From assembly GCF_001651805.1 (NCBI RefSeq), contig NZ_CP015839.1, positions 1,984,001 to 2,048,000 on the forward strand: a stretch of 64,000 nucleotides of DNA, given 5' to 3'. Under the pieces are notes generated by a model, which made no database searches, was not told where the DNA came from, and worked only from the letters and a program-made list of their open reading frames with translations. Shown here piece after piece: positions 19,252 through 59,303 of the stretch; position 1 is the first letter of the stretch; every line of letters starts with the position of its first letter. The stretch comes from Marinobacterium aestuarii (GTDB taxonomy: Bacteria > Pseudomonadota > Gammaproteobacteria > Pseudomonadales > Balneatricaceae). A program made the translations under genes and the position numbers.

Positions 19252-19326
19252 GCGGGTATCGTATAGTGGTTATTACTCGAGCTTCCCAAGCTTGCGAGGC
19301 GGGTTCGATTCCCGCTACCCGCTCCA
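19252..19326 (+). tRNA. tRNA-Gly (CCC), island attachment gene
   Basis: A complete cloverleaf: acceptor stem GCGGGTA/TACCCGC, anticodon arm CGAGC-TTCCCAA-GCTTG with anticodon CCC, T arm with GGTTCGATTCC, encoded CCA at 19324-19326. An integrase gene in the same orientation starts 232 bases downstream, so this tRNA is the expected insertion site of the island that fills the rest of the window. Confidence 0.96.
19293..19326 (+). other. Predicted attL within the 3' end of tRNA-Gly
   Basis: P4-type integrases recombine within the 3' part of tRNA genes, so the T arm and acceptor end of this tRNA should form the left attachment site. The crossover core cannot be fixed, because I found no second copy of this sequence within the window to serve as attR. 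Confidence 0.5.
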
Positions 19327-26393: not shown

Positions 26394-26431
26394 GAGGGGC
26401 CGAGAAGGCTCAGCTGGACAATGGAGTGTTC

Positions 26432-30970: not shown

Positions 30971-31864
30971 CTACGGCGCCTTTTTGGCCCCTTCAAACCG
31001 TAACGCTTCTATTTGTGAATAGTCTTCCAGTACCACTGGGTTGGCCCTGCAGAGGTTGATGTCTTCCACGTCAAGCGGGGCTGTCGGCACCTGCATGAGT
31101 TGCAGCAGGTAGATCGCCGTGGCAGCGCGGGTTTTAATGCACAGCACCTCGTCGCTGAAACAGCGTTCGTGCCGGATAAGTGCCTGCTGTTCTGGCGTCA
31201 GCCCGGGGTTGGGGATCAGTCTTAGTTCAACCTCCCGCTGCCAGAGCCTATCGTGCGTCGGATCCTCCAGCCGGGGGCCAAGTATTTCGCCGCACGCCAG
31301 AATCCTCCCGAGCAGGAAGTCGCGATAATCCCGGTTTTTCTCGCAGAAGGCACGCAGGTGCCAGCGGTAGCCACTGGAGACCAGTGAGTGCGGAGCTATG
31401 ATCCGTTCTTCTCCCTTTGGGCTGGTCATGGAGGCATAGGTCAGCTCCAGCCGCTGGCCTGTCCGGCAGGCTTCGACTACTTGACGCACGATACGTGGTT
31501 CTGCCCGGCGCTGGGGTGGACGAATAACGCAGGTGTGGCTTTGTGACAGGGCGATGCGTTCAACAAAGCCCTCAAGGAAGCTGTGTGAATCCAGCAGGTT
31601 CAGGTATTCATCTACGGTACCAGTCGTGAAGTGCGGGGTGAAGTTTACGGAAGGTATATAGCCCTTCAGATGAGCGTCGTAATCGAGGTTCTCCGGTACC
31701 ATCTGCTTGTATTGATTGATATCCCGGGAGGCCTGCTGACGCTTGATGCCAAAGGTGTTGCACAGGTGATTGGTTGTCAGGCGCCCCTCCCACAGGGCAA
31801 TGATCTCGATATAGCGATAACGCAGTAACACTTCCCACTTCAGATCTTTCAGTGCCGTCAGCAT
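30971..31864 (-). CDS. WYL-domain regulator, BrxR/CapW type
   Basis: A 297-residue transcription factor with an N-terminal winged HTH (RLTTNHLCNTFGIKRQQASR), a central WYL domain with GYRWHLRAFCEKN and YRDFLLGRIL, and a C-terminal WCX-like dimerisation part. BrxR/CapW proteins repress antiphage operons (BREX, CBASS and others) and are released on infection or DNA damage. It diverges from the block starting at 31993, with palindromes in between, so it probably represses itself and that block. ATG 31864 is preferred to the upstream 31921 because the added residues would overlap the operator region. Confidence 0.88.
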   Translation of the reverse strand: MLTALKDLKWEVLLRYRYIEIIALWEGRLTTNHLCNTFGIKRQQASRDINQYKQMVPENLDYDAHLKGYIPSVNFTPHFTTGTVDEYLNLLDSHSFLEGFVERIALSQSHTCVIRPPQRRAEPRIVRQVVEACRTGQRLELTYASMTSPKGEERIIAPHSLVSSGYRWHLRAFCEKNRDYRDFLLGRILACGEILGPRLEDPTHDRLWQREVELRLIPNPGLTPEQQALIRHERCFSDEVLCIKTRAATAIYLLQLMQVPTAPLDVEDINLCRANPVVLEDYSQIEALRFEGAKKAP

Positions 31865-31870
31865 CCTACC

Positions 31871-31928
31871 TGTCCCTTTCAGGGTACATGTCCTGTTAAG
31901 GGGACATATACATGTATACAAATCTTAC
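31871..31928. promoter_or_regulatory. Operator cluster of the WYL regulator
   Basis: Several dyads overlap between the divergent genes: TGTCCC/AGGGTACA around 31871-31888; TACATGTCC (31885-31893) with GGACATATA (31902-31910), arms matching at eight of nine positions; and the perfect 12-base palindrome TATACATGTATA (31907-31918). ACATGT recurs at 31926-31931. These are plausible sites for a dimeric WYL repressor; binding is inferred from position. Confidence 0.65.
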
Positions 31929-31992: not shown

Positions 31993-32262
31993 ATGTTTTC
32001 AAAACATGCCACACAACGTATGCAGCAGCGCGGTGTTTCAGGCCTGATGGTTGATCTGCTGATCGACTATGGCGCAGTCGACTACCACCGTGGCGCACAA
32101 GTGATCTGGCTCGACAAGCGTGGCTGGCGACAGCTATGCCGGGAGCTGCCCTGTACCAGGCAAGTGCTCGACAAGGTGCGCCGCTGCTACCTGGTTATGG
32201 CGGCTGGCATCGTGGTCACCGTTGGGCACAAGACCTGCCACTTCAAGACAAAACGTCACTGA
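31993..32262 (+). CDS. DUF4258 family protein
   Basis: An 89-residue protein that begins FSKHATQRMQQRGVS, the typical DUF4258 opening, and ends with VVTVGHKTCHFKTKRH. DUF4258 proteins are small, often in toxin-antitoxin-like or mobile settings, and their activity is unsettled; a nuclease-like fold has been suggested. A GTG three bases upstream is an alternative start, and GGAGG at 31984-31988 serves either. It is the first gene of the block divergent from the WYL regulator. Confidence 0.75.
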   Translation: MFSKHATQRMQQRGVSGLMVDLLIDYGAVDYHRGAQVIWLDKRGWRQLCRELPCTRQVLDKVRRCYLVMAAGIVVTVGHKTCHFKTKRH

Positions 32263-32280
32263 AGCTTTCAAACCGAGGCG

Positions 32281-32502
32281 ATGACCATGGCGATGCTGCT
32301 TATATTGGTTGGTTTGGCCGTCATGATGGATCACCCCTTTTGGGGTGAGCTAATCGCGGGGCTTGGGGTGCTGGCTGCAAGTAACCCGAGCGAAGCTGAC
32401 ACCTGTGCGATCGGTATTGTCGGCGTAGTCGGAGGGTTGTTTCTGCTCTATGTCCTGCACTCGTGCTCAAGTGCAATGCACCAGACCGGTCTTGGCGGAT
32501 AG
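32281..32502 (+). CDS. Small membrane protein, 73 residues
   Basis: Two hydrophobic segments (MLLILVGLAVMM and IGIVGVVGGLFLLYVLHSC) in a 73-residue protein with GAGG upstream of the ATG. No family is recognised. It lies 18 bases after the DUF4258 gene and 50 before the peptidase gene, so it is likely part of the same transcript. Confidence 0.5.
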   Translation: MTMAMLLILVGLAVMMDHPFWGELIAGLGVLAASNPSEADTCAIGIVGVVGGLFLLYVLHSCSSAMHQTGLGG

Positions 32503-32552
32503 TTAAACCAACTCGGCTGATCCTGAAAAATGATAAGAACGGAGAAACTCCC

Positions 32553-33218
32553 ATGGCTAGTCAATGGACTTACGCAAAGCTGGAAGGGCTGGGTCGTACC
32601 CGGTTGTCGGAAAACTTTTTTATGCGGGAGTTTTTGCACTCCGAGATCGCCCAGGCCCATGGCTTAACCAACGCGCCGGAAAACCCGGAGCTGGCGATCG
32701 CGGCAGGTACACAGCTGTGCGAGCAGGTACTGGAGCCAATCCAGGCGGCCTGGGGCAAGGTCCATATTCGGTCCGGTTATCGATCGCCCGAGGTCAATGC
32801 CCTGGGCAACAGTGCAAAAATGAATTGCGCCAGCAACGAGAGCAATCGGGCTGCCCATATCTGGGATGCGCTGGACGCTAGCGGCCAGATGGGTGCAACC
32901 GCCTGCATTGTTATACCCGCCTGGCTGGATCAGTTCGAAAAGACGGGCGACTGGGCGTCACTGGCCTGGTGGATTCATCATCAGGTGCCCGGCTACTACG
33001 AGATGGTGTTCTTCAAGAACCTCTGCGCCTTCAATATCCGCTGGTACCAGGGCAATGATGGCAACAAGACCATCCGCTCCTTCCTACCGAACCCTGATAC
33101 GGGTGATAAAGCAGCTTTGCTCAGCAGGGGGCAGGTCCATTCGTATTACGCGTTAATGCCTGAGGCACAGCGCTGTGCAGGGGCCCAAGTCATGATCAAT
33201 TCGATACTTGCTGTTTAA
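32553..33218 (+). CDS. M15-like D-Ala-D-Ala peptidase domain protein
   Basis: A 221-residue protein whose centre reads VHIRSGYRSPEVNALGN, the typical opening of the peptidase M15 (VanY/VanX, D-Ala-D-Ala cleaving) fold, with RAAHIWDALD and HHQVPGYYEMVFF where the metal ligands should lie. The classical SxHxxGxAxD is changed (ESNRAAHIWDALDA), keeping His and Asp. No signal peptide is present, so it would act in the cytosol unless exported by another route. GGAG lies nine bases before the ATG. It is placed between a membrane protein gene and sbcD, an unusual setting for a cell-wall-type enzyme. Confidence 0.75.
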   Translation: MASQWTYAKLEGLGRTRLSENFFMREFLHSEIAQAHGLTNAPENPELAIAAGTQLCEQVLEPIQAAWGKVHIRSGYRSPEVNALGNSAKMNCASNESNRAAHIWDALDASGQMGATACIVIPAWLDQFEKTGDWASLAWWIHHQVPGYYEMVFFKNLCAFNIRWYQGNDGNKTIRSFLPNPDTGDKAALLSRGQVHSYYALMPEAQRCAGAQVMINSILAV

Positions 33219-33274
33219 GGTCCAAATGGCGGCTATGCTCTATTTCACTCGCAAGTGCAGACAAGGATGATGTG

Positions 33275-34423
33275 ATGCCACGATTTCTACACACTTCTGA
33301 TTGGCATATTGGGCGGCTGTTTCAGAACGTATCGTTACTCGATGATCAGCTGCATGTTCTGAAGCAGATCAAAAGTTATGCGAAGGAACACGGTGTAGAT
33401 GCCTTGGTCGTGGCTGGGGATATCTACGATCGCTCCGTTCCACCCGCTGAAACGGTTGATGCGCTGAGCGCATTTCTGGCCGACTTCACGGCTGAGCTTT
33501 CCATTCCAGTCATCTTGATATCCGGTAATCATGACAGTGCTAAACGATTACGATTCGGCGCTCAGTACATGTCCGGATCCGGCCTGCATATTCTCGGCGA
33601 TATCCTTAACGTTGCGACTCCAGTAACGCTCGAGACGGACAGCGGCCCGGTCCATTTCTACGGCATTCCCTATCATGATCCGGTCGAGGTGCGGGAGGCT
33701 TATGGGTGTGACGTAAAGAATTATGATGAGGCGCACACGTATCTTGCGCGACTTGCCGAACAGGCACGGACTCCTGGCATTCCTGCTGTTTTGATCAGCC
33801 ACTGTTTTATCGACGGAGCTGAGGGGTGTGACTCCGAGCGCCAACTCTCCCTTGGCGGGGCTGATCGTGTCTCCTATCAACCGCTGCAGGAGTTTGATTA
33901 TGTGGCGCTGGGTCACCTGCACGGGCCGCAGTACAAAGGCGCCGACCATATCCGGTACTCGGGTTCGCCGCTGAAGTACTCGTTTTCAGAGCACCGGCAG
34001 CAGAAAGGTGTGATCCTGGTCGAACTTACGGACGATGGCGTGATTTGGGAGCACCTAGAACTGATTCCTAAACGTGACCTGCGAGTGTTGGAGGGAACGT
34101 TGGCCGAGCTGATGGAGCAGGGGCGCAGAGATCCTCGCCAGGACGACTATATACTCGCCCGCTTAACCGATACCCAGGACCTGCTGGAGCCAATGAGCCA
34201 GTTGAGACAGGTGTATCCCAATACGCTCGAGCTGGAAAGGACCAACTTCGTCATTTCCCGTGGCAGCCAGCTTGTCGCCGATGTCAGCAGTCGACGCAGT
34301 GAGGACCAGGTGTTCAAGGATTTCTTTCGGCAAGTGATGGGTGGTGAGCTTACTGATGAACAGAACGAGTTGCTGTTTGAAGTGATTACCGAGGCTCGTG
34401 CCGGCATGGAGGAACAGGGATGA
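33275..34423 (+). CDS. sbcD: Exonuclease SbcD (Mre11 family)
   Basis: A 382-residue calcineurin-like phosphoesterase, nuclease subunit of SbcCD, which cuts hairpins and DNA ends. All metal-binding motifs are present: TSDWHIGRLF at the N-terminus, VVAGDIYDRSVPP, LISGNHDSAKR, SHCFIDG and ALGHLHGPQY. Its last four bases overlap sbcC (ATGA). As it lies inside the island among defence-type genes, it is probably an accessory copy; the host may carry another elsewhere. Confidence 0.95.
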   Translation: MPRFLHTSDWHIGRLFQNVSLLDDQLHVLKQIKSYAKEHGVDALVVAGDIYDRSVPPAETVDALSAFLADFTAELSIPVILISGNHDSAKRLRFGAQYMSGSGLHILGDILNVATPVTLETDSGPVHFYGIPYHDPVEVREAYGCDVKNYDEAHTYLARLAEQARTPGIPAVLISHCFIDGAEGCDSERQLSLGGADRVSYQPLQEFDYVALGHLHGPQYKGADHIRYSGSPLKYSFSEHRQQKGVILVELTDDGVIWEHLELIPKRDLRVLEGTLAELMEQGRRDPRQDDYILARLTDTQDLLEPMSQLRQVYPNTLELERTNFVISRGSQLVADVSSRRSEDQVFKDFFRQVMGGELTDEQNELLFEVITEARAGMEEQG

Positions 34424-37400
34424 AGCTGCATAAACTGAAACTGTCTGCCTTCGGTCCCTTCGCCGGCAATGAGTCCATCGATTTCTCGCAACTTGGTGAG
34501 AATCCGCTGTTCTTGATCGATGGCCCGACCGGGGCAGGAAAATCATCTCTTCTGCATGCGGTCTGCTATGCCCTCTATGGTGAAACGACCGATGCCGAGC
34601 GAAAAGAGCTCGGTATCCGGTGCGACAATGCAGATCCCGATGTACTCACGGAGTTGAAGCTCGAGTTCAGCATCCGTGGACAGCGTTATCGTATTCATCG
34701 AGTGCCGACACAAGTGCGCCCGGCCCGACGAGGTGATGGCGAAACGGAACAGAAAGCTACCGCACACCTGGTCCGAATTGCAGATGATGGGACTGAAGAG
34801 ACGCTGGTCCCCAAGAAGAAAACAGAGGCCGATGTCCATATCAGGGCGATACTGGGCCTGACCACTGATCAGTTCCGTCAAGTCATGGTGTTACCGCAGG
34901 GGAAGTTTCGTGAGCTGCTGTTGGCGAAATCTGACGACCGCCAGGAAATCCTGTCGACGCTATTTCAGACCGAGGTCTACAAGCGCATCGAGCAGCTATT
35001 GAAGGACAAAGCGGGCGACATAGAGAGACAACACAGAAGATTTGAAGAGAGTAAGACCGAAGCACTGCACGAAATCCACATTGCCGATGTTGACGCTTTA
35101 CTGGAGGCCATTGCTCAGTCATCCACTACTTTGGCGGAAAGAGAGAGCGCAAAGGCAAAGGCGGACACCTTCAAACGAGCTGAAGAGGCGAAGCTGAAAG
35201 CAGCTGAGGCATTGCAGAAACGCTTTGAAGAGCAGGAGACCAAGCAAACAGATCTGAAGACTCATCAGGAACGCAAGCCCGAAGTCGACGAGGCTCGAGT
35301 GCGAATCCAGAGAGCGGAGAAAGCCGCTGCCATCGCGCCGCTCTGGCAGACGTTGCAGGGACTGGATCAGCAAATTCGGGTTCAGGACGTCGAGACTAAA
35401 GCGGCGAATAGTGCGGTGAATCAGGCGAAGCTTGAAGCTGATGAAGCCGTGAGAAGCCTGCAGGAAATGGAAAAACGTTACGAATCGCGTGATGAACTGA
35501 AGGCTACGGAAACTCGTCTTGCAGGCTACCGGAAAACGCTGGAAGGCTATGAGTCGTTAAAGGCAGCTGTTCAGAAGGCTAACTTAGCGCATCAAAAAGC
35601 CCTGTCCAGGGTTGAAGCGCTCGATCACGAGATGGCCAGTATCGACAAGACTCTCGAGGGTCAGATTGAAGAAATCGAAGTGCTCGGTAAACAGATCGGG
35701 CAGAAGGCAGAGTGCATTGAGCTGCAGATTGCGGCTAAGCGTCGACTAGACACTCGAGTTAAGCTGGAGGCCGCAGCGGCATATTTGGCAACGCGCGAAA
35801 AAGCCGTGCGCGTGGCCCAGGCGGCACTAGAAGAAGCAGATAGAAGCTATAAGCAAGCGAACACCAACGCCGATCGGCTGGAGATGACCTGGTTTACCAA
35901 TCAGGCTGCAGTGCTTGCGCAAAAGCTGCAGCTGGACCAACCCTGTCCTGTGTGCGGTAGCTCCGAGCATCCTCACCCAGCTGAGTTTCCAGAAGACATA
36001 GAGAAGGTCAATCAGGACGCAGTTGATCAGGCGCGAAGAGATGCGAGCGACTGCCTGAATGCTCGGTATTCATCGGAGACGCAGCTAACTGAGTGCGTAA
36101 GTGCAGTACAGCACCAGAGAAAGCTCATTACTGAGCTGGAGTCGGAGCTGGGCGAAAATGCCACACATACGGTAGATGAGTTAACGCAGGCTCATCGTGA
36201 GCTGGAGAAGCGCTTGCAGCAGATTTGCAAGAGCGAACAGCAGTTAGAAACCGTAAAGGCAAATAGAAAGACAGAGGAGACCAAGCGGATCCCGCTGGAT
36301 ACGGAACGCACCAGTCTCAATAAGGGTATGCCGGAACTGAGTGCTGCGAAAGCGGCAGCCGAGAACCAGTTGGCAAATGCCGAGAAAGAATTGCCTGAAG
36401 CATACCGGAGCCTAGATGCGCTGAACCGGGCCATCCTAGATACCGTTCAGGCAATCAAAAAACTTGAAACAGACTACCAAGGGGCCCAGAAACGGCAGGC
36501 CGAAGCTTCAAATGCTGCTTCCGCAGCACAATCGAATCTGAAGGCACTCAACAAGCAGCTGCAAGACCTGCAGACGCGTAGAACGACTCAGTCCAGCCTT
36601 TGGCAAAGGGTGCTGTCGGATAGCGAGTTTGAAAACCAAGCAGATTTTGAAACCAGTGTGCTGGAAGAGACGACGACTGAAGAATTGCGGACCACTGTAA
36701 AGGGTTATGATGACAAACTTCGTTCGCTGAACTCCCAGCTGGAACTGATCGCACAGCAGCTGGCGGATCAACAGCCACCGGATATGGCCTCACTGGAAGC
36801 GAATCATAAAGCTTCTGAAACCGCCTACCAGGAGGCCGAGAAGGCCTGGACAGAAGCTCAGCAAGCTAAAGCGCTGCTGAATCGAACATTAGCGAAAATT
36901 CGTTCCCTGGAAACACAGCAGCAAGCGGTGCAGCGGCAATACGAAGTGGTTGGCAAAATGGCCAAGGCTGCCGGAGGAAGAGGTGACGTCCGGGTTAGCC
37001 TGGAGCGTTTTGTCCTTGGCAACCTGCTCGATTCGGTGCTCAGCGTCGCGAGCCAGCGCCTGCATGCCATGAGCAGAGGCCAGTACCGTCTCGTGCGTCA
37101 GAACGAAGCGGACCAGAAGCGGACCATGACCGCCGGGCTGGATCTGGCCATCGATGACGCTTACAGCGGCAAGACCCGGCCGGTTGCCACCTTATCGGGT
37201 GGTGAATCTTTCATGGCTTCGCTTGCATTGGCGCTGGCGTTGTCCGATGTGGTGCAGCAGCGCTCCGGGGGAATCCAGCTCGACACCCTGTTTATCGATG
37301 AAGGCTTCGGAAGCCTGGATCAGGAGTCATTGCAGTTAGCTATAAACACTCTTGTTGAGCTGCAGTCCAGCGGGCGGACCATTGGCATCATCTCTCATGT

Positions 37401-37488
37401 GTCGGAGCTGAAAGAGCAGATGCCGCTGCGGATTGATGTTAGTAGCTCGCGAGCGGGGAGCACCGTAAGAATGAGCTGTCTGCCGTGA
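34420..37488 (+). CDS. sbcC: Exonuclease SbcC (Rad50 family ATPase)
   Basis: A 1022-residue SMC-like ATPase, partner of SbcD. Walker A GPTGAGKSS starts at about residue 35; long coiled coils flank the zinc hook CPVC (C509-P-V-C512); the ABC signature LSGGESFMASLALALALS is near 925 and Walker B LFIDEGFGSLD near 957. Every catalytic element is intact. The complex would tether and process DNA ends. The gene is followed, after 258 bases with no clear gene, by the PLD-like gene on the same strand. Confidence 0.95.
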   Translation: MKLHKLKLSAFGPFAGNESIDFSQLGENPLFLIDGPTGAGKSSLLHAVCYALYGETTDAERKELGIRCDNADPDVLTELKLEFSIRGQRYRIHRVPTQVRPARRGDGETEQKATAHLVRIADDGTEETLVPKKKTEADVHIRAILGLTTDQFRQVMVLPQGKFRELLLAKSDDRQEILSTLFQTEVYKRIEQLLKDKAGDIERQHRRFEESKTEALHEIHIADVDALLEAIAQSSTTLAERESAKAKADTFKRAEEAKLKAAEALQKRFEEQETKQTDLKTHQERKPEVDEARVRIQRAEKAAAIAPLWQTLQGLDQQIRVQDVETKAANSAVNQAKLEADEAVRSLQEMEKRYESRDELKATETRLAGYRKTLEGYESLKAAVQKANLAHQKALSRVEALDHEMASIDKTLEGQIEEIEVLGKQIGQKAECIELQIAAKRRLDTRVKLEAAAAYLATREKAVRVAQAALEEADRSYKQANTNADRLEMTWFTNQAAVLAQKLQLDQPCPVCGSSEHPHPAEFPEDIEKVNQDAVDQARRDASDCLNARYSSETQLTECVSAVQHQRKLITELESELGENATHTVDELTQAHRELEKRLQQICKSEQQLETVKANRKTEETKRIPLDTERTSLNKGMPELSAAKAAAENQLANAEKELPEAYRSLDALNRAILDTVQAIKKLETDYQGAQKRQAEASNAASAAQSNLKALNKQLQDLQTRRTTQSSLWQRVLSDSEFENQADFETSVLEETTTEELRTTVKGYDDKLRSLNSQLELIAQQLADQQPPDMASLEANHKASETAYQEAEKAWTEAQQAKALLNRTLAKIRSLETQQQAVQRQYEVVGKMAKAAGGRGDVRVSLERFVLGNLLDSVLSVASQRLHAMSRGQYRLVRQNEADQKRTMTAGLDLAIDDAYSGKTRPVATLSGGESFMASLALALALSDVVQQRSGGIQLDTLFIDEGFGSLDQESLQLAINTLVELQSSGRTIGIISHVSELKEQMPLRIDVSSSRAGSTVRMSCLP

Positions 37489-37746
37489 TTAGCAGGAGCT
37501 TGGGAGTATCTGATTTGCAACGTGAGTTAGCCGGTGCGAGCTGCAACGAGATAGATGATTCAGATCCACTTTATCAGGCAGCTTTACCGTATCGATTTGT
37601 TTGATTTTTTAGCAAAGCTAATCGGATGTTTAAGAGCGCTTTCCATCCACAGTTGAAAGGCGCTGACCGAATAAGTTACTACAAATTGATTACCTTGTGT
37701 TCAGAGAGCGGCGCTAGCTGAACAAGGATGAGCAGGAGTTTGTGTT

Positions 37747-38703
37747 ATGTCGGAAATAAAATTTCTCGGTAGCGGGCTCAAGATAAAAAAAAAGCTCACG
37801 GAGCTGATCTCTACGCAACCTGACGGCGAAGCTCTACTGATGCTGGTGGCTTATTGGGGCATCGGTATAGATGATATTCTTGAGCCAGGGAAAACTTACA
37901 AAGCTGTTTGTAATTTGACAGATGGTGGGACGAACCCCGCCATCATTGAGGTGCTGCAGCACCGGGACGATATAGATATAGAGCTGCGACATCAGCTGCG
38001 GCTGCATTCGAAGGTTGTGGTGGGCGAGTCGGGAGCGCTAGTTTCCTCTGCGAATATTTCGTCGAATGGTCTCTCGCTAGGTGAGCAATCAGGCAATATT
38101 GAGGCAGGTATTTTTTTATCGTCTGCGACTGATCCGTACAACGACGTGCTCGCCTGGGCAGAGGAAGTATGGCGGTCGGCTAATGAAGTCGATCAAGAAA
38201 CCCTGCGTAAAGCGAAAGAGGCTTATGCCAAGCGGAATCCATCACAACCGATCCCCCCCAAAGATGAGAAGCCTACTGATAATGCTGAAGAATACGAGGG
38301 GGCTGAAGCTGAAGTCCGACTACCAACTTTATCGGAATATGACCTTTTTGCTCCTGAGAAGATTAATACAAACAATATACTCAGGACAGCTAGTACGCCG
38401 CTTTTGAATAGTTACCGTAAGATGACAGGACGTGATGTTAAAGGAAGAGATGGATGGATCGCTGCCTATGTGGTTAACCTGTTATGGACTCATCTTGGTC
38501 ATAGCATTTCATGGAAGCTTGGTACATTTCACCGTCCTGAGCAAGTGGTCAATCGATGGCGAGATGAAAAGGTAAAAGATGATACCGTCAAGAGGTTTTT
38601 GCGGTGGATTACTATAGAAAATAACTCAAATAGCCGTATATCCAAGGTGGCTTCTCATCTGCTAATGACTGCCTGGCAAAAGTATACAAGTGGAGATAAA
38701 TGA
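37747..38703 (+). CDS. Phospholipase D-like nuclease-family protein
   Basis: A 318-residue protein. The N-terminal third resembles one half of a PLD fold, with H87-S-K89 in LRLHSKVVVGESGALVSSAN and N103 following; the Asp of the HxKx4D motif is replaced by Glu. Only one such motif is present, so activity would need a dimer. Residues about 210-318 form a separate domain (SYRKMTGRDVKGRDGWIAAY, then WRDEKVKDDTVKRFLRW) that I do not recognise. Its TGA stop is followed at once by the ATG of the DUF262 gene, so the two are tightly coupled. Confidence 0.8.
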   Translation: MSEIKFLGSGLKIKKKLTELISTQPDGEALLMLVAYWGIGIDDILEPGKTYKAVCNLTDGGTNPAIIEVLQHRDDIDIELRHQLRLHSKVVVGESGALVSSANISSNGLSLGEQSGNIEAGIFLSSATDPYNDVLAWAEEVWRSANEVDQETLRKAKEAYAKRNPSQPIPPKDEKPTDNAEEYEGAEAEVRLPTLSEYDLFAPEKINTNNILRTASTPLLNSYRKMTGRDVKGRDGWIAAYVVNLLWTHLGHSISWKLGTFHRPEQVVNRWRDEKVKDDTVKRFLRWITIENNSNSRISKVASHLLMTAWQKYTSGDK

Positions 38704-40626
38704 ATGGAAGCCAATGCCCGCAATCTGGAACGTATTTTTGATAGCACCGTTTCATATCAGATCCCGCTGTTTCAGCGCCCTTATGTCTGGAAAGAGGAAA
38801 GCAACTGGCTACCGTTGTGGGAAGATATTCTCAGCCTGCTTGAGCGCCAATTGAATGAGGGCCGATGCCGCACGCACTTTCTGGGGGCTGTGGTGCTGGA
38901 GCAGCTTAACAATGCTTCAGGCTCGATCGAAACACGCCAGGTTATTGATGGGCAGCAACGCTTTACTACCCTGCAGCTGTTTATGATTGCGGTACGTGAC
39001 CTCTGTCGACCGGCTGAAAATGACAAGTACTTCGAGCGCTTCAACGACTTGGTAACCAACAAGGCAAACAAGGTGGATCTCGCCCTAGAAGTCTACAAGG
39101 TTTGGCCTACCAATAGCGACCGTGAGGCCTTTGAATTGGTCCACAGGTCAGGCTCTGATGAGACCATCAAGGCGGCTCTGCAAGCGGATCCACAACTGAG
39201 TTCGCAGTCTCACCAGATAATTGGCGGCTACCAGTACTTCTATGGCGTTCTGCGCAACTGGCTTGCTGGCGATCTGGATAATGAAGATTATAGCAACAAG
39301 GATATTTCAGTCGATGATCGGTTGGATGCACTTTGGCAGGTCGTGCGCAATGCGCTGCAGCTTGTCGTTATCGATCTGGACAGGGATGACGAATCCCAGG
39401 TGATATTCGAAACCTTGAATGCCCGTGGTACCCAGCTCCTCTCGGCGGATCTCGTCAAAAACTATTTGTTCCGTCGAGCGCAGGGGGAAGGTCAGGAGAT
39501 CGAACCGCTTTATGAAGACTACTGGAAGGCGTTTGACGCTAAGTTCTGGCGAAAAGAGATCAAGCAAGGGCGTCTTAAACGGCCCCGTATCGACCTCTTT
39601 ATGCAGCACTACCTGACTTTGATGATGCGAGAAGAAATTCGCCCAACTCATTTATTTGAGTCGTTCAAACATTATGTCCAGGACCTAGAGTTGGATGCTC
39701 CTGAAGCGCCTTTGGGCTATGGGGAGGATTCTGTTGAGCCATTAACAATACATCCCTGTGACACCCGGGGGCATTTAGAGTCACTCGACCGCTACGCTCG
39801 CGCATTCAAGTCCTTCGTGCAGCCAGATGTAGGATCTCGCTTGGCGCATTTCCTGCATCGCCTGGAAGCTGTCGATACCGCGACGGTCTATCCACTGTTG
39901 CTGCTTGCAGGAAATAAGCTATTGCCTACCCAGCATGAGGAGTTCGACAAGCTGCTTTATGTGCTTGAGTCCTTCCTGATGCGCCGCATGATCTGCTGTC
40001 TGACCACCAAGAACTATAACCGTCTGTTTTTGGATGCCATCAAGTTCATGGGCCGCAGCGGCGTAGTAAGCGCCGCTGTTCTTGCTGAATTTTTGAAAAA
40101 TAGCAGAGGTGGGGACAGTGTTCGTTTCCCTGATAATGATGAGCTCAGCCATGCGATAAAAATCAATCCTCTCTATAAGCGCCTTAGGCAGTACAAACTG
40201 CGAGCAGTACTTGAGGCCTTGGATATGGCAATGCATGACAAGAAAAGTGAACAGCTTCCCTTACCTGACGGGCTGACAATCGAACATATCATGCCGCGAA
40301 TCTGGCTGGAGAACTGGTCAATTCCGGAGTTGGATGCGGAGCATCCGGAGCGTAAGGTGGCCTTTGTTCAAAACCGCAATCATGCGTTACATACACTGGG
40401 CAACCTGACGCTGATCACTGGCAGCCTGAACCCTGCACTGTCCAATGGTACCTGGCACCAGAAACGTCCGGAACTCGTGAAGTACAGCAAGCTGAATCTT
40501 AATCGCTATTTCCACAGGCCTTCAGATCCAGAGGCTACGGATGAGCTGGCCGAGTGGAATGAGGAAGCAATAGCGAAGCGTGCTGAACATCTTTCCGAAT
40601 TGGCGATTCGTGTGTGGCCATATTGA
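38704..40626 (+). CDS. DUF262/DUF1524 (GmrSD-like) nuclease
   Basis: A 640-residue protein. The N-terminal DUF262 domain has the signature QIPLFQRPYVWKEE (about 19-32) and VIDGQQRFTTLQLF, a ParB/Srx-like NTP-binding fold. The C-terminal DUF1524 is an HNH-type nuclease: IEHIMPRIW with H528 and HALHTLGNLTLITGSLN with H560. This is the build of GmrSD type IV enzymes, which cut DNA carrying modified cytosines, and of related defence proteins (SspE, BrxU). It starts one base after the PLD gene stop, implying a shared complex or pathway. Confidence 0.9.
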   Translation: MEANARNLERIFDSTVSYQIPLFQRPYVWKEESNWLPLWEDILSLLERQLNEGRCRTHFLGAVVLEQLNNASGSIETRQVIDGQQRFTTLQLFMIAVRDLCRPAENDKYFERFNDLVTNKANKVDLALEVYKVWPTNSDREAFELVHRSGSDETIKAALQADPQLSSQSHQIIGGYQYFYGVLRNWLAGDLDNEDYSNKDISVDDRLDALWQVVRNALQLVVIDLDRDDESQVIFETLNARGTQLLSADLVKNYLFRRAQGEGQEIEPLYEDYWKAFDAKFWRKEIKQGRLKRPRIDLFMQHYLTLMMREEIRPTHLFESFKHYVQDLELDAPEAPLGYGEDSVEPLTIHPCDTRGHLESLDRYARAFKSFVQPDVGSRLAHFLHRLEAVDTATVYPLLLLAGNKLLPTQHEEFDKLLYVLESFLMRRMICCLTTKNYNRLFLDAIKFMGRSGVVSAAVLAEFLKNSRGGDSVRFPDNDELSHAIKINPLYKRLRQYKLRAVLEALDMAMHDKKSEQLPLPDGLTIEHIMPRIWLENWSIPELDAEHPERKVAFVQNRNHALHTLGNLTLITGSLNPALSNGTWHQKRPELVKYSKLNLNRYFHRPSDPEATDELAEWNEEAIAKRAEHLSELAIRVWPY

Positions 40627-40760
40627 ATGACGTGGAGAACCGTTGAAGTTTGAACTTAGGCATAGCGGTGTAGTGAGCTGAAGGTGAAGAATGATGAGTC
40701 ATCCAAATTGCTAACTCGACAGCTAGCCTCACGATACCAAAATTGGATTAAAGGGAAATT

Positions 40761-43490
40761 ATGTCCGTATCGATAAAGATAGGTCTTGGGCTAGATGGCA
40801 AGCTCATGATGCCTCACCCAGCACAAGCTGGTCTGATTGTTGGTGGACCATCTAAAGTTCTGGCGTGGCTGGAGGCGCAGCTCGGTCTTGCGGTACCAGA
40901 CACGGGCTTCACAAAGCGGATGTTGCAATATCTGGCGTGTCTCAAAGAGGTGGATTCTACCTCACGGTTTTACCATGAGTCTTTGCTGGTTGACCCACTG
41001 GGTGTTGCAAGGCAGATACTTCAGTGGCGAGACCATCTGTATTTAGCAGCATGGGACGGTGGACAGCTCCCCCATGTATCGCCGCGCCTGACAGACATAG
41101 AAGCGGTTGAGAAACTTGCGCGTGATCGCGTCGCATTTAACGAAGGGCAACGGGTTTTTCGAGTTATTGAAGCGCTGGAGGTTATTTCTCTCGATATCGA
41201 GTTAGAGGTCTGCGACCCAGTAACAAGCTTTCCGGCTGTCTGGCAGCGCCTCTTGAACTATCTGGAGCCTCATTATCAGCCCTTTTATGCAGAAATTCCC
41301 GCGAAGTCGGACTCCGATTTGGGGCGGCTACAAACTGCATTGCGTTCCGAGACTTCAGATGCAGTTCAGCTGGAAGGTGATGGTAGTCTGATTTTGATTC
41401 GAGCGCCTTCTCGGGCATGCTCGGCTGAATGGTTGGCACACGCAATTGCGGAAAAATTAACGGCTCAGTCTGGACAAAGTATCGGCCTTCTGTGCGACGG
41501 TCCAGCTGATGCAGTTGATCTTGCATTAAAACAGGTTGGAGTTCCTCAGCTCGCAGTAGGTCAGGCGTCGGCACTGCGCCCCGTATTTCAGGTGCTGTCA
41601 CTGGCACTGGAGTTGCTATGGGAGCCTCTCAATCCTCAGTACTTGCTGGCTTTCCTCGCTCATCCCGTAGGCCCATTACCGGTGCGACTCCGCAGACCTT
41701 TGGCTGAACTGGTAGCCAATGAGCCTGGTATCGGTGGAGAAGTCTGGGACGCCTGCATCGAAAAGATGATCGAATCGGAAATCGCTAAATGTGATATATC
41801 GGAGAAGGTTGCCGGCGTTGAAGGCAAAATTCGTGATCAATTAGCCTTTTGGCTGATGAACGAACGATACTCCAATTCCGAGGGGGCACCGCTGGAAATT
41901 GTCAAGGAACGAGTTCGAGCGATATCAACGTGGATGGGAGGGTATCGTCAGGTTCTAAGCCAGAAATCTGAATCGGAAGCGGAGATCGAGCTGATTGGCC
42001 AGGCACAAAGCCATTTATGGGAGTGCTTGGAAGCGCTAGACCAGTTAGAACAACAAAATTTGAGCCATATTGGTGCCAACGATCTGCGTCGCTTGATTAA
42101 CGAAGTTCGCGGAGACGGATTTACCCGTCCTGACGTATGGCCCGAGCTATCGGCCAATCTGCCGACAATTGACTATGCAAAGGATCCAGCATGCTGCATT
42201 AGTAATCAGGATCTGCTTGTCTGGTGGGGAATGGATGCTCCACATCAGCCTCAGCACACAGGTTGGAACAGATCCGAACGTGCTGAGTTGTGCGCCAGTG
42301 GCGTTGAGATCGATGACGTGGGCGAAACCATCAGTTGGCACGCGAACTCATGGTTACGCCCCTTGTTTGCTGCTCGCAGTCTGCTGTGCCTTGTGATTCA
42401 CGATGATGCTGAAAGTAAGCACCCAGTGCTGGACTTGATCAAGTCACGAGTGAGATGCATACCGGAGTACGACCTGCAAACGTTGATACAATCGACGGAC
42501 GAGATGGAAAATTTTCCATTGGCCGTAACGTTGCGAGACCAGACCGCCCTTTGTCTACCTTCTCGCACACGTATATGGCAGTTGCCGGAAGGGCAACTGA
42601 TTCCTCGACGGGAAAGAGAATCGTTCTCCAGTCTGGAAAGCTTCCTGTTAGGCCCATATCAGTGGGTACTCCGGTATCCGGCACGACTCAAGACTGGGGC
42701 TTTGTTGGAAATCAGCGATGATAATCGTCTGAAAGGCAATCTAGCCCACGCGCTTTTCGAAGCCTTCTTTAGCCGGCCTGAGCATGCTGCGCTTCATAGC
42801 CTTTTGCTCAGTGATGTGCGCGAGTGGTCCCGTTCGGCACTAAATGACCTTATTGCGACTCGTGGGACAGTGCTGCTGCTTCCAGGTCGTATGGCTGAGC
42901 GAGAGCGCTTCATTGAAGATAGCACTGAGGCGCTGGTAGCCCTTGTTCAACACTTACAAGCAGGCGATGTTGTCAGCGTACAGCTTGAGTCCGAGCAGGA
43001 TGGAACCTTCACCGGCGGCAAACTCGCAGGTGTGCTGGATATGATAACAACTCGACGTGATGGGCGAGAAGCCGTTATCGATTTGAAATGGGCGGGTGCA
43101 AAGTACCGTCGAGAATCGCTTCGAGAAGGTACTTGTCTACAGTTGGCTATCTACGCTCAGCTTCGGCTACAAGACAGCGGACGAATGCCGGACGTTGGCT
43201 ATTTCGTTATTTCGAGCCGAGAACTACTGATGTTTGACTCTGACTATTTCCCACAAGCGGAATCGATTCGTCCTGAGAATAACGAAGGTTTACTGCAGAT
43301 CTGGCAGCGACTCGAAACAACTTGGAAACAGCGCCGGCAACAGTTGGACCGGGGAATGATCGAGGTGAATGTCAGCGGTACAGAACCGTTGGGAGCGTTT
43401 CAGCTAGATGAAAATGCTTTGACGGTTCCGGATACCTTTGAATCATTTAACGAGTTTGTAGCGTTGGTAGGATGGGAGGCCGAAGCGTAA
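40761..43490 (+). CDS. AddB-like protein with C-terminal PD-(D/E)XK nuclease
   Basis: A 909-residue protein. The last third is a RecB/AddB-type nuclease: SLESFLLGPYQWVLRY, H663 in GNLAHALFEAFF, D760 in GKLAGVLDMITT, D774-x-K776 in AVIDLKWAG, then QLAIYAQLRL. The N-terminal two thirds resemble an inactivated helicase: no intact Walker A is seen, and the usual loop may be the degenerate LIVGGPSKVLAWLE. As in AddAB, it pairs with the downstream helicase-nuclease gene, overlapping it by one base (TAATG). I see no cysteine pattern for an iron-sulfur cluster. Confidence 0.82.
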   Translation: MSVSIKIGLGLDGKLMMPHPAQAGLIVGGPSKVLAWLEAQLGLAVPDTGFTKRMLQYLACLKEVDSTSRFYHESLLVDPLGVARQILQWRDHLYLAAWDGGQLPHVSPRLTDIEAVEKLARDRVAFNEGQRVFRVIEALEVISLDIELEVCDPVTSFPAVWQRLLNYLEPHYQPFYAEIPAKSDSDLGRLQTALRSETSDAVQLEGDGSLILIRAPSRACSAEWLAHAIAEKLTAQSGQSIGLLCDGPADAVDLALKQVGVPQLAVGQASALRPVFQVLSLALELLWEPLNPQYLLAFLAHPVGPLPVRLRRPLAELVANEPGIGGEVWDACIEKMIESEIAKCDISEKVAGVEGKIRDQLAFWLMNERYSNSEGAPLEIVKERVRAISTWMGGYRQVLSQKSESEAEIELIGQAQSHLWECLEALDQLEQQNLSHIGANDLRRLINEVRGDGFTRPDVWPELSANLPTIDYAKDPACCISNQDLLVWWGMDAPHQPQHTGWNRSERAELCASGVEIDDVGETISWHANSWLRPLFAARSLLCLVIHDDAESKHPVLDLIKSRVRCIPEYDLQTLIQSTDEMENFPLAVTLRDQTALCLPSRTRIWQLPEGQLIPRRERESFSSLESFLLGPYQWVLRYPARLKTGALLEISDDNRLKGNLAHALFEAFFSRPEHAALHSLLLSDVREWSRSALNDLIATRGTVLLLPGRMAERERFIEDSTEALVALVQHLQAGDVVSVQLESEQDGTFTGGKLAGVLDMITTRRDGREAVIDLKWAGAKYRRESLREGTCLQLAIYAQLRLQDSGRMPDVGYFVISSRELLMFDSDYFPQAESIRPENNEGLLQIWQRLETTWKQRRQQLDRGMIEVNVSGTEPLGAFQLDENALTVPDTFESFNEFVALVGWEAEA

Positions 43491-46400
43491 TGCGTAATAT
43501 TGAGTTTATCAGCGCTGGTGCCGGTAGTGGTAAAACCACAAGCTTAACGCAACGGCTAAAAGACTTCCTGGAGAACCAGGGTGTTCAGCCAGAAGGAATT
43601 ATTGCGACAACTTTTACGCGGCTAGCCGCCACTGAATTGCGAGAGCGTGTGCGACAAGCATTGCTCAAAGCGGGTAGGAATGACCTTGCGAATTCGATGG
43701 GGCTCGCTGCCATCAATACTGTGAATGGGGTCTGTGGGCAGCTCTTAAAGCGATTTGCGTTCGAAGCTGGTTTATCGCCGGAGCAGCGGGTGCTCGATGA
43801 ACCGGAAGCCAAGCAGTTGTTTGGCGAGGCGCTCGATACGGTTATCGATGCGACTCCCGATCGAGTAAGAACTCTGAATCAGCTTGCACGACGGTTGGGT
43901 CATGAAGATGGCGGCAAGCCTTTATGGCGCCGTTATGTGATCGAGCTTGTCAGTGCCGCCCGCGCCAATGATTGTAATGACAGCCAGCTGGTCCAGTTTT
44001 CGCAGCTAAGTCGAGAGGAACTCCTCAGTTTCTTTCGAAAGCCAACTGACAGAGATCTTGATCAAGAGCTCCTTCAGCAGATAGAAGGTGCGCTAGAGAC
44101 TATCGATACGGCGGCCGATACCACTAAGGCGACCAGAGACTATCTGTTACTTCTGAAACAGACCAAACGCAGCTTGACGTCTGGACAACTGAGTTGGGAC
44201 CAGTGGGTCAAAATGTCGAAGACGTCGCCTGGTGCAAAAAGTCGCGCGGCAGCAGAAGGCGTTCAACTGGTGGCTGAGGACTTTGAGGTTCATCCCCGTC
44301 TTCATCAAGACCTGAACGAATATATCGATCTGGTGTTCCAGTTGGCGGAGATCAGCCTGGAAACCTATCAGACCACAAAACGTCAACAAGGGCTGCTCGA
44401 TTTTGTCGATCAGGAGTTGCTGCTATTTCGACTGCTGGAGAGCCCAACGATTCAAGCTGTTCTGGAGGATGAGCTTCAGCTGCTGATGGTCGATGAGTTC
44501 CAGGATACAAGTCCGATTCAACTTGCATTGTTCTTACGTCTTGCGAAGTTGGCTGATCATGTCGTCTGGGTGGGAGACGTCAAACAGGCGATTTACGGTT
44601 TCCGAGGCTCCGATCCAGCGTTGATGCAACGTGTGCTGTCGGCGGTCCTGTCAGGAGGAGGGCAGACCGGAATACTTGAAAAATCATGGCGTTCGCGTCC
44701 TGCACTGGTGCACTACTGCAATGCCATTTTTTCCCACGCTTTCCAAAATACTGTACCAGCCAAGCAAGTGTGTTTGGAGCCAGCTCGCAAAGAGCAAGTT
44801 GACGAACCGGCCATTGTGCGCTGGTCCCTTTCTGGAAATATCGATAATCAGCTTGCAGCATTGGCCAGCGGAATCAGGAATCTGCTGGTAGAACGGTACC
44901 AGGTGATCGATAAAGAGACAGGTGAGCCACGTAATGTACGTCCCGGTGATATTGCAGTTTTATGTCGATCCAATGACCGGTTGAAAGTGCTTGCTCAGGC
45001 TTGTGCTGTCCAGGGGCTCGATGTCAGTTACACTCGACCTGGATTGCTAGCGACACCCGAGTGTACGCTAGCGATTGCTTGTTTGAGGCGAGTGTCTGAC
45101 CGCAATGACTCCCTGGCAACCGCGGAAATCCGCATGCTTGCTATGGGGGAAAGCGTCCCAGAGTGGCTGCCTGAACGGCTCAATTATGTGGCAGACGAGG
45201 CATCCGAATGTATTTGGGGAGAAGACGGGACCAATGACATTCTGACCTCACTGGCTGATGTACGTACTCATCTGCGTAACTTGACGCCGTCCGAATCGCT
45301 CGCTGAAGCGCTACAGCGCGGTAAAGTTCGTGAGACTGTCAATCGTTGGGGGCCTACGAGGCAACGAGTTCGCAGTCGGCACGCAAACTTGGATGCGTTG
45401 CAGGGACTGGCGGAGCAGTATGAAAGCCATTGCAAAATTCGAAGCGAGGCGGCCAACGTCTCGGGACTCATTTTATGGTTGAAAATGCTCGAAAAAGAGG
45501 GCGAGGACTGGCAAGCAACACGGCAGGATGATGATGTATTAACGCTGGTGACTTATCACGGTGCCAAGGGGCTAGAGTGGCCCGTCGTTATCGCATTTGA
45601 TCAAGACTACCCGATCAAGACCCGACTGTGGGGCGTTTCGGTTCGGGGTTCTGCTGAAGATGTCGACATTCTGGAACCGCTAGCACACCGAGTATTACGT
45701 TTCTGGCCATATCCATTTGGTAAACAGGCGAAAGATATTCCGGTGGTCGAGCGAATCCAGGCCGCTGAATCCGGCCAACAAGCCGAATTCGAGGCTCTAG
45801 AGGAGGAAAAACGACTGCAGTACGTAACCTTTACACGTGCTCGGGATCTGTTGATTCTGCCTGTAAAGGATGAACGAAGAGCTCAGGTGCCGAGTACATT
45901 GGGTGTCGAGTGGGTTTATCCGCATGATAACTGTTTGCTACTACCGGATGGTGCAAGCCTACCGGCACGGCAAGTATCCATTGAACCGCTAGAAGATCGC
46001 CAAGCGCTTGCAGATATCTATCAACCCTTGTGGATGCATACCGATCTCCAGACTGGCGTACTTTTGAGTAGAAGTGTAACGGCCTCAGCTATGGAGCCGC
46101 GGTTTGACGCAACTATTGGGGAGATCGTCGAGCTTGGCGAACGCTTGCCACTGACCGGCAAAGTCGAAGACATAGCGCGGCTAGGTACGGCCATTCACAA
46201 CTCGATCGCCGCAGATACTAATGCCGGTGAGTCTCTGACGCTGGATAGAGTCGACGAAATCCTGGTGGAATGGGGTGTTCGGGATGCTATTGCGCCGGAA
46301 TCAGCCATCGAAGCCAGCAGGCGGCTAAGACGCGCAATTTGTGACCGCTATCAGGTCGTCAGCTGGCTGGTTGAATATCCCGTCAGTTATGTGACCGAGT

Positions 46401-46636
46401 TGGGTCAGGAGATGACAGGGTTTATTGATCTACTCGTGGAAACGCCGGAAGGTTGGTTGATTATTGACCACAAATCATCCCCCGCGCGGAGAAGTGAATG
46501 GCAGGGCATAGCGCTTGGTTATTCAGGACAGCTAGCGTTGTACGAGCAGGCAATCAGTGAATTAACTTTCAAGCCTGTGCTTGGATGTTGGATTCATTTT
46601 GCAATCACTGGAGGTCTGGTGGAAGTGCGAACATGA
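43490..46636 (+). CDS. AddA/RecB-like UvrD helicase-nuclease
   Basis: A 1048-residue superfamily 1 helicase fused to a nuclease. Walker A SAGAGSGKTTSL (residues 8-19), Walker B DEFQDTSP (D335), motif III GDVKQAIYGFRGSDP, motif V TLVTYHGAKGLEWPVV and YVTFTRARDLLILP are all intact. The C-terminal PD-(D/E)XK core has D980 in GFIDLLVETPEGW and D993-H-K995, followed by YSGQLALYEQAI. With the AddB-like protein it should form an end-processing helicase-nuclease. The ATG overlaps the upstream stop codon by one base. This is a divergent pair, not the housekeeping RecBCD. Confidence 0.9.
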   Translation: MRNIEFISAGAGSGKTTSLTQRLKDFLENQGVQPEGIIATTFTRLAATELRERVRQALLKAGRNDLANSMGLAAINTVNGVCGQLLKRFAFEAGLSPEQRVLDEPEAKQLFGEALDTVIDATPDRVRTLNQLARRLGHEDGGKPLWRRYVIELVSAARANDCNDSQLVQFSQLSREELLSFFRKPTDRDLDQELLQQIEGALETIDTAADTTKATRDYLLLLKQTKRSLTSGQLSWDQWVKMSKTSPGAKSRAAAEGVQLVAEDFEVHPRLHQDLNEYIDLVFQLAEISLETYQTTKRQQGLLDFVDQELLLFRLLESPTIQAVLEDELQLLMVDEFQDTSPIQLALFLRLAKLADHVVWVGDVKQAIYGFRGSDPALMQRVLSAVLSGGGQTGILEKSWRSRPALVHYCNAIFSHAFQNTVPAKQVCLEPARKEQVDEPAIVRWSLSGNIDNQLAALASGIRNLLVERYQVIDKETGEPRNVRPGDIAVLCRSNDRLKVLAQACAVQGLDVSYTRPGLLATPECTLAIACLRRVSDRNDSLATAEIRMLAMGESVPEWLPERLNYVADEASECIWGEDGTNDILTSLADVRTHLRNLTPSESLAEALQRGKVRETVNRWGPTRQRVRSRHANLDALQGLAEQYESHCKIRSEAANVSGLILWLKMLEKEGEDWQATRQDDDVLTLVTYHGAKGLEWPVVIAFDQDYPIKTRLWGVSVRGSAEDVDILEPLAHRVLRFWPYPFGKQAKDIPVVERIQAAESGQQAEFEALEEEKRLQYVTFTRARDLLILPVKDERRAQVPSTLGVEWVYPHDNCLLLPDGASLPARQVSIEPLEDRQALADIYQPLWMHTDLQTGVLLSRSVTASAMEPRFDATIGEIVELGERLPLTGKVEDIARLGTAIHNSIAADTNAGESLTLDRVDEILVEWGVRDAIAPESAIEASRRLRRAICDRYQVVSWLVEYPVSYVTELGQEMTGFIDLLVETPEGWLIIDHKSSPARRSEWQGIALGYSGQLALYEQAISELTFKPVLGCWIHFAITGGLVEVRT

Positions 46637-49718: not shown

Positions 49719-49751
49719 CACCGTATGGACACAACATTTAAGGCTTAAGAC

Positions 49752-59302: not shown

Positions 59303-59303
59303 G

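Follow-up and report, generated by a model that had tools for sequence, protein, structure and literature searches.

A mobile AddAB-like gene pair as a probable accessory DNA-end degrader in a defense region of Marinobacterium aestuarii

Introduction

Restriction enzymes only cut DNA, and the destruction of the fragments is usually credited to the host RecBCD. Cutting is the task of type III Res and of GmrSD enzymes. Enzymes of the AddAB type load on DNA ends and degrade the DNA, while hairpins and blocked ends can be opened by SbcCD; phages disarm the RecBCD/AddAB-type enzyme as well as SbcCD, with lambda Gam blocking both. In this study, we examine two adjacent genes for an AddB-like and an AddA-like protein in a 64,000-base stretch of the Marinobacterium aestuarii genome (G000:C1:1984001-2048000, hereafter the window; the genome is a single contig of 5,191,608 bases), where an original prediction made from the letters alone had read nine genes as one candidate defense system under a WYL regulator. 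The term “AddAB-like” itself has reportedly turned up in one paper, on staphylococcal repair. Our analysis indicates that the stretch is probably a composite part of a defense island, in which an autonomous and mobile AddA/AddB-like pair serves as an accessory DNA-end degrader for restriction-type defense.

The nearest precedent in the literature is the UvrD-Cas4 fusion, in which an SF1 helicase is joined to a Cas4/RecB-type nuclease and which has WYL genes and type III Mod and Res as neighbors; such fusions were predicted to be ancillary in several defense systems, and the bacteria bearing them usually also have RecB (Hudaiberdiev et al. 2017, PMC5704561). The window likewise has Mod/Res and WYL genes as neighbors of the pair, but UvrD-Cas4 is a single fused chain that lacks any AddB partner, whereas the window encodes a heterodimer-type pair with a separate AddB-fold subunit. 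Because the same logic would apply to a two-subunit, AddB-containing enzyme, the pair can be seen as a variant of that kind; type III genes are scarce at its other loci (the MTase_beta profile matches at 1 of 53, the Mod of locus L179 lying outside the counted stretch). Gabija also combines a nuclease with a UvrD-type helicase, and the consulted portion of a preprint describes it as acting on DNA ends on which RecBCD cannot load, shows that phage blockage of RecBCD at ends does occur and is exploited by bacteria, and makes no mention of an AddAB-like pair (PMC12407980). The AddA-like protein of the window matches GajB at 131 bits; however, no GajA is among the matches listed for the AddB-like protein, and the window helicase carries a nuclease domain of its own. 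A two-gene AddAB relative on plasmids and in islands beside antivirus genes appears not to have been described before; our literature search found no AddAB-like defense pair, with a coverage that misses most subscription papers and is weak evidence of novelty.

Results

A diverged AddAB-type pair with intact nuclease residues

What is established for the pair comprises its folds, the intact nuclease residues of the AddB-like protein, the helicase and nuclease domains of the AddA-like protein, and the pairing of the two genes. An AlphaFold2 model of the AddB-like protein built from a 32-row alignment (A2) reached a pLDDT of 83.6 and a pTM of 0.77, and a Foldseek search with this model returned 4ceh_B as the best match in the Protein Data Bank (PDB; E 7.5e-23, TMq 0.57). 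The top five fold matches are without exception AddB chains of AddAB; RecC (8b1t_C, 6.2e-16) and AdnA (9np6_A, 1.2e-14) come next, a result that bears out the AddAB-like label given to the pair by the original prediction. By sequence, the Pfam match of the AddB-like protein is confined to the C-terminal nuclease, and a PDB sequence search with the A1 profile found nothing at E up to 0.1; the best PDB sequence match of the AddA-like protein is AddA (3u44_A, E 1.5e-28). Neither protein comes close to the cut-offs for canonical AddA, AddB, or RecB, with NCBIfam equivalog scores of 204.1 against 707.65 for AddA and 22.9 against 486.5 for AddB, and no dedicated model for the pair is among the matches listed in PADLOC 2.0.0 and NCBIfam 20.0. 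Judged by the modeled fold and these scores, the pair would work like AddAB and yet not be filed as AddAB. It is comparable to AddAB, RecBCD, and AdnAB in its AddB fold, its AddA with UvrD and PD-(D/E)XK domains, and its arrangement as two tandem genes, but differs from them in the length of the AddB-like protein (909 aa versus about 1150), in an identity of 13-14% to solved AddB, in the loss of four cysteines, and in being rare and mobile.

The catalytic residues E743, D760, D774, and K776 of the AddB-like protein are invariant in 32/32 rows of the alignment, as are its other nuclease residues barring one G-to-S at position 757, and no GKT-type Walker A was seen by eye at the N-terminus. The four cysteines, which we take to be iron-sulfur (Fe-S) ligands as in AddB and Cas4, are jointly present in 25 rows and jointly absent in 7, the window being among the latter. 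A 44-row tree places the 8 rows lacking the C-terminal CxxC..C in a single clade with support 100/100, within which the window sits on a long branch. This lineage offers a clean case of an AddB that lost its four-cysteine site while retaining its nuclease residues.

The two genes travel together, and in the window host the pair is an extra

One peptide pattern yielded 38 genome loci, of which 34 were examined (L037 was dropped as a copy of L027, and L050-L052 because they matched only at about residues 610-807). An AddA-like sequence lies immediately 3' of AddB in 33 of the 34, L021 having no AddA in its stretch, and the genes overlap in at most 28 of the 30 intact pairs, as the most upstream AddA start was used. 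At L043:10019-15724 (Beijerinckia), AddB and AddA are fused in one open reading frame (ORF), which measures 1901 aa when its start is placed close to the AddB match; imperfect loci are L020 and L044 (AddB frame broken), L023 (short AddA ORF), and L041, which ends with its contig. On plasmids, a UvrD-type gene directly follows AddB in 12 neighborhoods taken from 26 records, with both genes annotated as split in L008. This pairing is further strengthened by the correlation of the AddA and AddB distance matrices across 44 loci (r = 0.985, against a highest value of 0.224 in 2000 permutations), from which L018, L020, L021, L023, L041, L043, and L044 of the 34 genome loci, L005 and L008 of the 12 plasmid loci, and L166 and L169 of a later set had been dropped.

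The pair occurs on 26 plasmid records, 17 of them typed as conjugative, with many matches on large rhizobial plasmids. In a sample of the phylum, 14/398 genomes match its profile at 1e-30, nine of them in one family (f237), while a single-protein search of a class sample found it in 1/274 genomes, the window's own; within the genus, it is absent from all six congeners examined, leaving the window host as 1/7. Among 35 candidate stretches on viral contigs, no relative was confirmed, and one of 50,697 records of a phage collection has the pair: L185 (MT835507.1), which is filed as “Bacteriophage sp.” (unverified) and reads as a bacterial defense island. This record holds the closest AddB/AddA pair by identity (32/41%), surrounded by WYL, ZorA/ZorB-like, and IetA-like genes according to PADLOC and by type I restriction-modification-like ORFs recognized by eye. 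The window host also carries RecB (1094.5 bits) and a second SbcD, so the pair is an extra in this genome; across the 14 genomes with the pair, RecB is over the cut-off in four and AddB (alpha type) in one, so that at least 5 of the 14 possess a canonical enzyme besides the pair.

Defense genes recur around the pair in varying combinations

A PADLOC scan at 1e-5 assigned 127 ORFs adjoining 34 AddAB loci to 406 families and 108 ORFs beside canonical-type SbcCD to 43, these figures counting families and not proteins, as a single protein can match many. Named matches among the 127 include BilD (5 ORFs), WYL (4), ZacC (3), and HEC-06 (3). Within 10 kb of 53 AddAB loci, we counted WYL 11 times, ThiF 6, SNF2 5, PLD 5, DUF262 4, HsdM 4, SbcD 3, and a beta-type methyltransferase once; 19 SbcCD control loci gave SNF2 twice and no other family (SbcD being left out of the count), and 10 SNF2-Mod-Res loci gave none besides their own SNF2 and methyltransferase. 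The profiles were partly trained on members from the same loci, which favors the AddAB loci over the controls, the stretches stop at contig ends, and L185 and L169 are outside the 53. The three SbcD genes compare with a rough, post hoc expectation of about 0.3 (1.5 copies per 4.5 Mb, 820 kb of flank), one of the three being doubtful. The five PLD matches stem from a profile that spans other PLD subfamilies, and tblastn at E up to 1e-6 found no close relative of the window PLD near AddAB in L003-L052.

The full gene set of the window is found at none of the 53 loci, some of which are shortened by contig ends, whereas partial recurrences of its order are evident. In L165, a locus of f237 in the same phylum, DUF262 is followed after 65 bases by AddB, AddA, two ORFs, and a truncated SNF2 of 222 aa, the gene order matching that of the window and the first 182 residues of this SNF2 being 73% identical to the window protein. 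In L166/L179, from the genus of L165, AddB and AddA precede the two ORFs shared with L165; next come a full SNF2 (57% identity) and another two ORFs, and behind these a type III Mod (629.6 bits) is followed by an unscanned helicase-like ORF of 907 aa in the Res position. In L034 (Parvibaculum), a WYL gene diverges from SbcD-SbcC, after which stand AddB-AddA and a dGTPase (216 bits). In L171, from the same class as the window host, a WYL gene (42% identity) points away from a run of two ORFs, AddB, and AddA. DUF262 stands right after AddA in L018 and two ORFs past it in L027. The original prediction had set against itself the case of homologues occurring only separately, which is not what we see: WYL, SbcCD, and AddAB stand together in L034, and DUF262, AddB, AddA, and SNF2 in L165. 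Linkage of the block genes is loose, not absent. As side observations, a Sir2-like gene (by motif, unscanned) stops some 40 bases short of AddB in L015 and L017 and lies similarly near in L018, and ThiF-type genes are near the pair in L004, L009, L012, L025, L031, and L046 (6/53 loci).

Setting of the pair in the window

The features of the region are collected in Table 1. All nine ORFs of the original prediction were recovered on a single strand, divergent from the WYL gene, and the junctions agree with it as well (a 4-base SbcD/SbcC overlap, no gap between PLD and DUF262, gaps of 258 and 134 bases, and a 1-base AddB/AddA overlap provided that AddA starts at 43490). Its block end at 46636 was wrong, being three genes too short: 145 bases on, SNF2, Mod, and Res continue on the same strand (46782-56266), and all twelve plus-strand ORFs are open. 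Its claim of a defense region is borne out, and the region looks mobile, given the tRNA-Gly and the integrase-like ORF that flag the left edge of a lower-GC region, where GC falls from about 0.57-0.60 to 0.41 past the tRNA; no second copy of the tRNA 3' end lies within the window. As it had also stated, the combination fits no named system, and no PADLOC system matches it. Between 30700 and 47000, 10 promoter-like matches (10.6 expected by chance) and 17 terminator-like matches (13.1 by chance, standard deviation 3.8) were found, both close to what chance would give. GC at third codon positions (GC3) differs by module: 0.64-0.68 from WYL through M15, 0.60/0.59 in SbcD/SbcC, 0.44 in PLD, 0.50/0.51 in AddB/AddA, and 0.64/0.59/0.64 in SNF2/Mod/Res.

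Table 1. Features of the island region, with positions counted from the first base of the window
Feature	Position	Strand	Evidence
tRNA-Gly(ccc), likely insertion site of island	19252..19326	+	ARAGORN
Tyrosine integrase, 409 aa ORF adjoining tRNA-Gly	19559..20788	+	Label by sequence reading, unscanned
WYL-domain regulator, divergent from block	30971..31921	-	PF13280 53.8 bits, cut-off 21.8
DUF4258-like small protein	31993..32262	+	21.3 bits, under Pfam cut-off 25
Small membrane protein, 73 aa	32281..32502	+	ORF; hydrophobicity judged by eye
M15-like peptidase family protein	32553..33218	+	19.3 bits, under cut-off 23.2
SbcD, second copy in genome	33272..34423	+	Metallophos and SbcD_C over Pfam cut-offs; TIGR00619 180.4 bits
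SbcC	34420..37488	+	AAA_23 and SbcC_Walker_B over Pfam cut-offs
PLD-like protein	37747..38703	+	Weak DrmC matches; partial PLD-family relatives
GmrSD-like DUF262/DUF1524 endonuclease	38704..40626	+	GmrSD_N 122.6, GmrSD_C 83.5 bits, both above cut-off
AddB-like subunit, 909 aa	40761..43490	+	PDDEXK_1 57.8 bits, over Pfam cut-off; AddB fold; intact PD-(D/E)XK site; no Fe-S cysteines
AddA-like subunit, UvrD helicase and PD-(D/E)XK nuclease	43490..46636 (start 43472 also possible)	+	UvrD-helicase 161.7 bits, PDDEXK_1 37.2, both over Pfam cut-offs
SNF2/DrmD-type helicase of type III-like module	46782..49718	+	SNF2-rel_dom 119.6 bits; PADLOC DrmD 637 bits
Type III-like Mod methyltransferase	49752..52898	+	PADLOC MTase_III PDLC03646 1179 bits, full length
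Type III-like Res	52895..56266	+	PADLOC REase_III PDLC03654 1613 bits, full length

The type III-like module downstream of the pair has adjacent, overlapping Mod and Res genes with full-length matches and may methylate and cleave DNA as type III restriction-modification systems do; it differs from such systems by the SNF2/DrmD-type helicase gene upstream. A leading gene of this type is also a feature of DISARM class I and of ARMADA (PMC12458937). No YprA-type helicase is among the matches of the scanned window proteins, and of the DISARM class I set (drmA, drmB, drmC, drmD, drmMI) the window has only a DrmD-like SNF2, which scores 640 against a cut-off of 950 with NCBIfam DrmD_b, and a weakly DrmC-like PLD, while its methyltransferase matches type III models. 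SNF2-Mod-Res is found without the upstream block genes on plasmids L053, L054, L056, and L057 (three of the four with inserted genes), on three Escherichia coli chromosomes, and in 5/9 further genomes of the order, the remainder being three short contig pieces and L137 (20 kb), which has no SNF2 match; identities to the window reach 85/66/86% for SNF2/Mod/Res in genome G330. Mod-Res DNA is matched partly by 165/5,426 E. coli genomes and over 80% of its length by none, Mod relatives occur on 11/24 Klebsiella plasmid records, and no Mod match was found in phages. The genes inserted within the module include an AAA ATPase and DUF4276 in L053 (Aeromonas) and an AAA ATPase with hypothetical genes in L057 (Hymenobacter).

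Upstream of the pair, the GmrSD-like protein carries both domains in one chain and may cleave modified DNA, and its PADLOC matches are Orf5, mREase_IV, and HEC-06. The PLD gene immediately before it sets the window apart from its plasmid relatives, as PLD was absent beside DUF262 in 4/4 plasmid loci read (of 36 plasmid records with a match); a recurring PLD-DUF262 pair was accordingly rejected, viral-contig scans with either protein having confirmed no relative. The PLD label is less secure than the original prediction had it: there is no Pfam match at E 0.01, and its basis is weak DrmC matches and partial matches (44-64% of length) to proteins annotated as “phospholipase D family”. A model of this protein from its lone sequence (pLDDT 33.7) was unusable and discarded.

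With respect to SbcCD, one match (2/28 candidates scored) had suggested that the window genes are the sole copy in the genome, which is refuted by a second SbcD at C1:3045831 (TIGR00619 231.6 bits). Around SbcC relatives in the order, 19 stretches (from 39 genomes with a match) contained no WYL, PLD, DUF262, or AddB match, and an E. coli search with SbcC-PLD DNA found none. In an SbcD tree with 10/18 inner branches open and long branches for L007, L008, and L034, the window SbcD is nearest by distance to SbcD from other genomes of its order (paths 1.34-1.62) and does not group with SbcD adjoining other AddAB pairs (end branches 4 to 10), such that co-inheritance of SbcD with AddAB is unsupported by this tree. 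The L007 protein, with an end branch of about 10, is so diverged that it may be another nuclease.

The divergent regulator had been described as of BrxR/CapW type with operator dyads; the WYL domain is confirmed, whereas the dyad GTACATGTCC-8-GGACATATAC at 31884-31911 is not clearly beyond chance, with an equally good one in 70/1000 same-length windows of the region and a perfect 12-bp palindrome in 36/1000. Relatives of this WYL protein at 42-47% identity adjoin AddAB in L171 and M15 in the Pseudomonas aeruginosa plasmid L141, where WYL (an ORF matched over its first part only), a small protein, and an M15 relative stand together (L141:8648-10621) next to genes annotated as dynamins, restriction-modification, and zorA. 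The DUF4258 and M15 labels both lie under the curated Pfam cut-offs, the latter gaining some weight from relatives of 50-56% identity on 10 plasmid records; an M15 relative in Acinetobacter (L142) is without neighbors of the WYL, dynamin, restriction-modification, or zorA type. Elsewhere in the window, we noted a NERD-domain protein of 744 aa (26426-28660; PADLOC NERD 65 bits) and an IS200-like transposase ORF (56349-56807, labeled by eye) between Res and a second run of four genes (58025-63594). This run, with a MksE-like protein (Pfam MksE 116 bits), an SMC-like ATPase, and a DUF7281/JetD-like protein, is a candidate antiplasmid locus of Mks- or Wadjet-like type with weak PADLOC scores.

Discussion

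The pair sits between the GmrSD-like nuclease and SNF2-Mod-Res, downstream of WYL, the M15/small-protein group, and an extra SbcCD. Under an accessory DNA-end degrader model, incoming DNA would be recognized and cut by Res and the GmrSD-like protein, with a possible part for the PLD protein, the AddAB-like pair would load on the cut ends, unwind the DNA, and degrade it, SbcCD could open hairpin or protein-blocked ends, and the WYL protein may hold expression low. We infer the cooperation of the modules, their order of action, their regulation, and any resistance to phages or plasmids. Several points weigh against this reading. Canonical AddB was not found in the nine f237 genomes that make up most of the 14 with the pair, and RecB is over the cut-off in only one of them, so that the pair could be a resident repair enzyme there; of the f237 loci read, two of one genus share neighbors and the other two differ. 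The PADLOC control was drawn from other genomes and with three ORFs per side versus two, and the tight junctions without a clear terminator make one long operon possible.

The original prediction favored a single integrated system, which in its extended form would comprise twelve genes under WYL, with nucleases cutting, SbcCD and the AddAB-like pair clearing ends, Mod marking self, and all parts required jointly. The single strand, the overlaps, the divergent WYL gene, and the partial orders in L165, L166/L179, and L034 speak for such a system, but we consider it improbable and dropped it as the main explanation, since the modules are found apart, most relatives occur separately, 0/53 AddAB loci have the full set, GC3 shifts between modules, and the window SbcD groups with SbcD of its order. 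The patchwork of GC3 and the separability of the modules would suit modules that gathered by chance at an insertion hot spot and do not cooperate; zero gaps and overlaps within modules, twelve open plus-strand ORFs, and the recurrence of AddAB with WYL, DUF262, SNF2, and SbcD make this very improbable.

An explanation that we regard as unlikely is that the AddAB-like pair and the extra SbcCD serve repair or recombination, helping a mobile element to become established or to recombine, and stand in defense islands merely as fellow mobile cargo. Homology to repair enzymes, the many matches on large rhizobial plasmids, and the f237 pattern are in keeping with this, whereas the neighbor profile is one of defense genes, none of the viral-contig candidates was confirmed, the sole phage-collection record reads as a bacterial island, and no recombinase was noticed as a recurring neighbor, though no systematic search was made for one. 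A more specific and rather doubtful suggestion, built on phage inhibition of host enzymes, is that the pair and SbcCD are inhibitor-proof spares, too diverged for phage inhibitors of RecBCD and SbcCD, which would complete the destruction of genomes that the type III and GmrSD modules have cleaved, once a phage has disabled the host enzymes. If this were true, the AddAB-like pair would serve restriction systems in general as a mobile accessory. Overall, an AddAB-type pair that is mobile and diverged, accompanies restriction and other defense genes, and resides in a RecB-positive host would make the idea of a “second shredder” directly testable.

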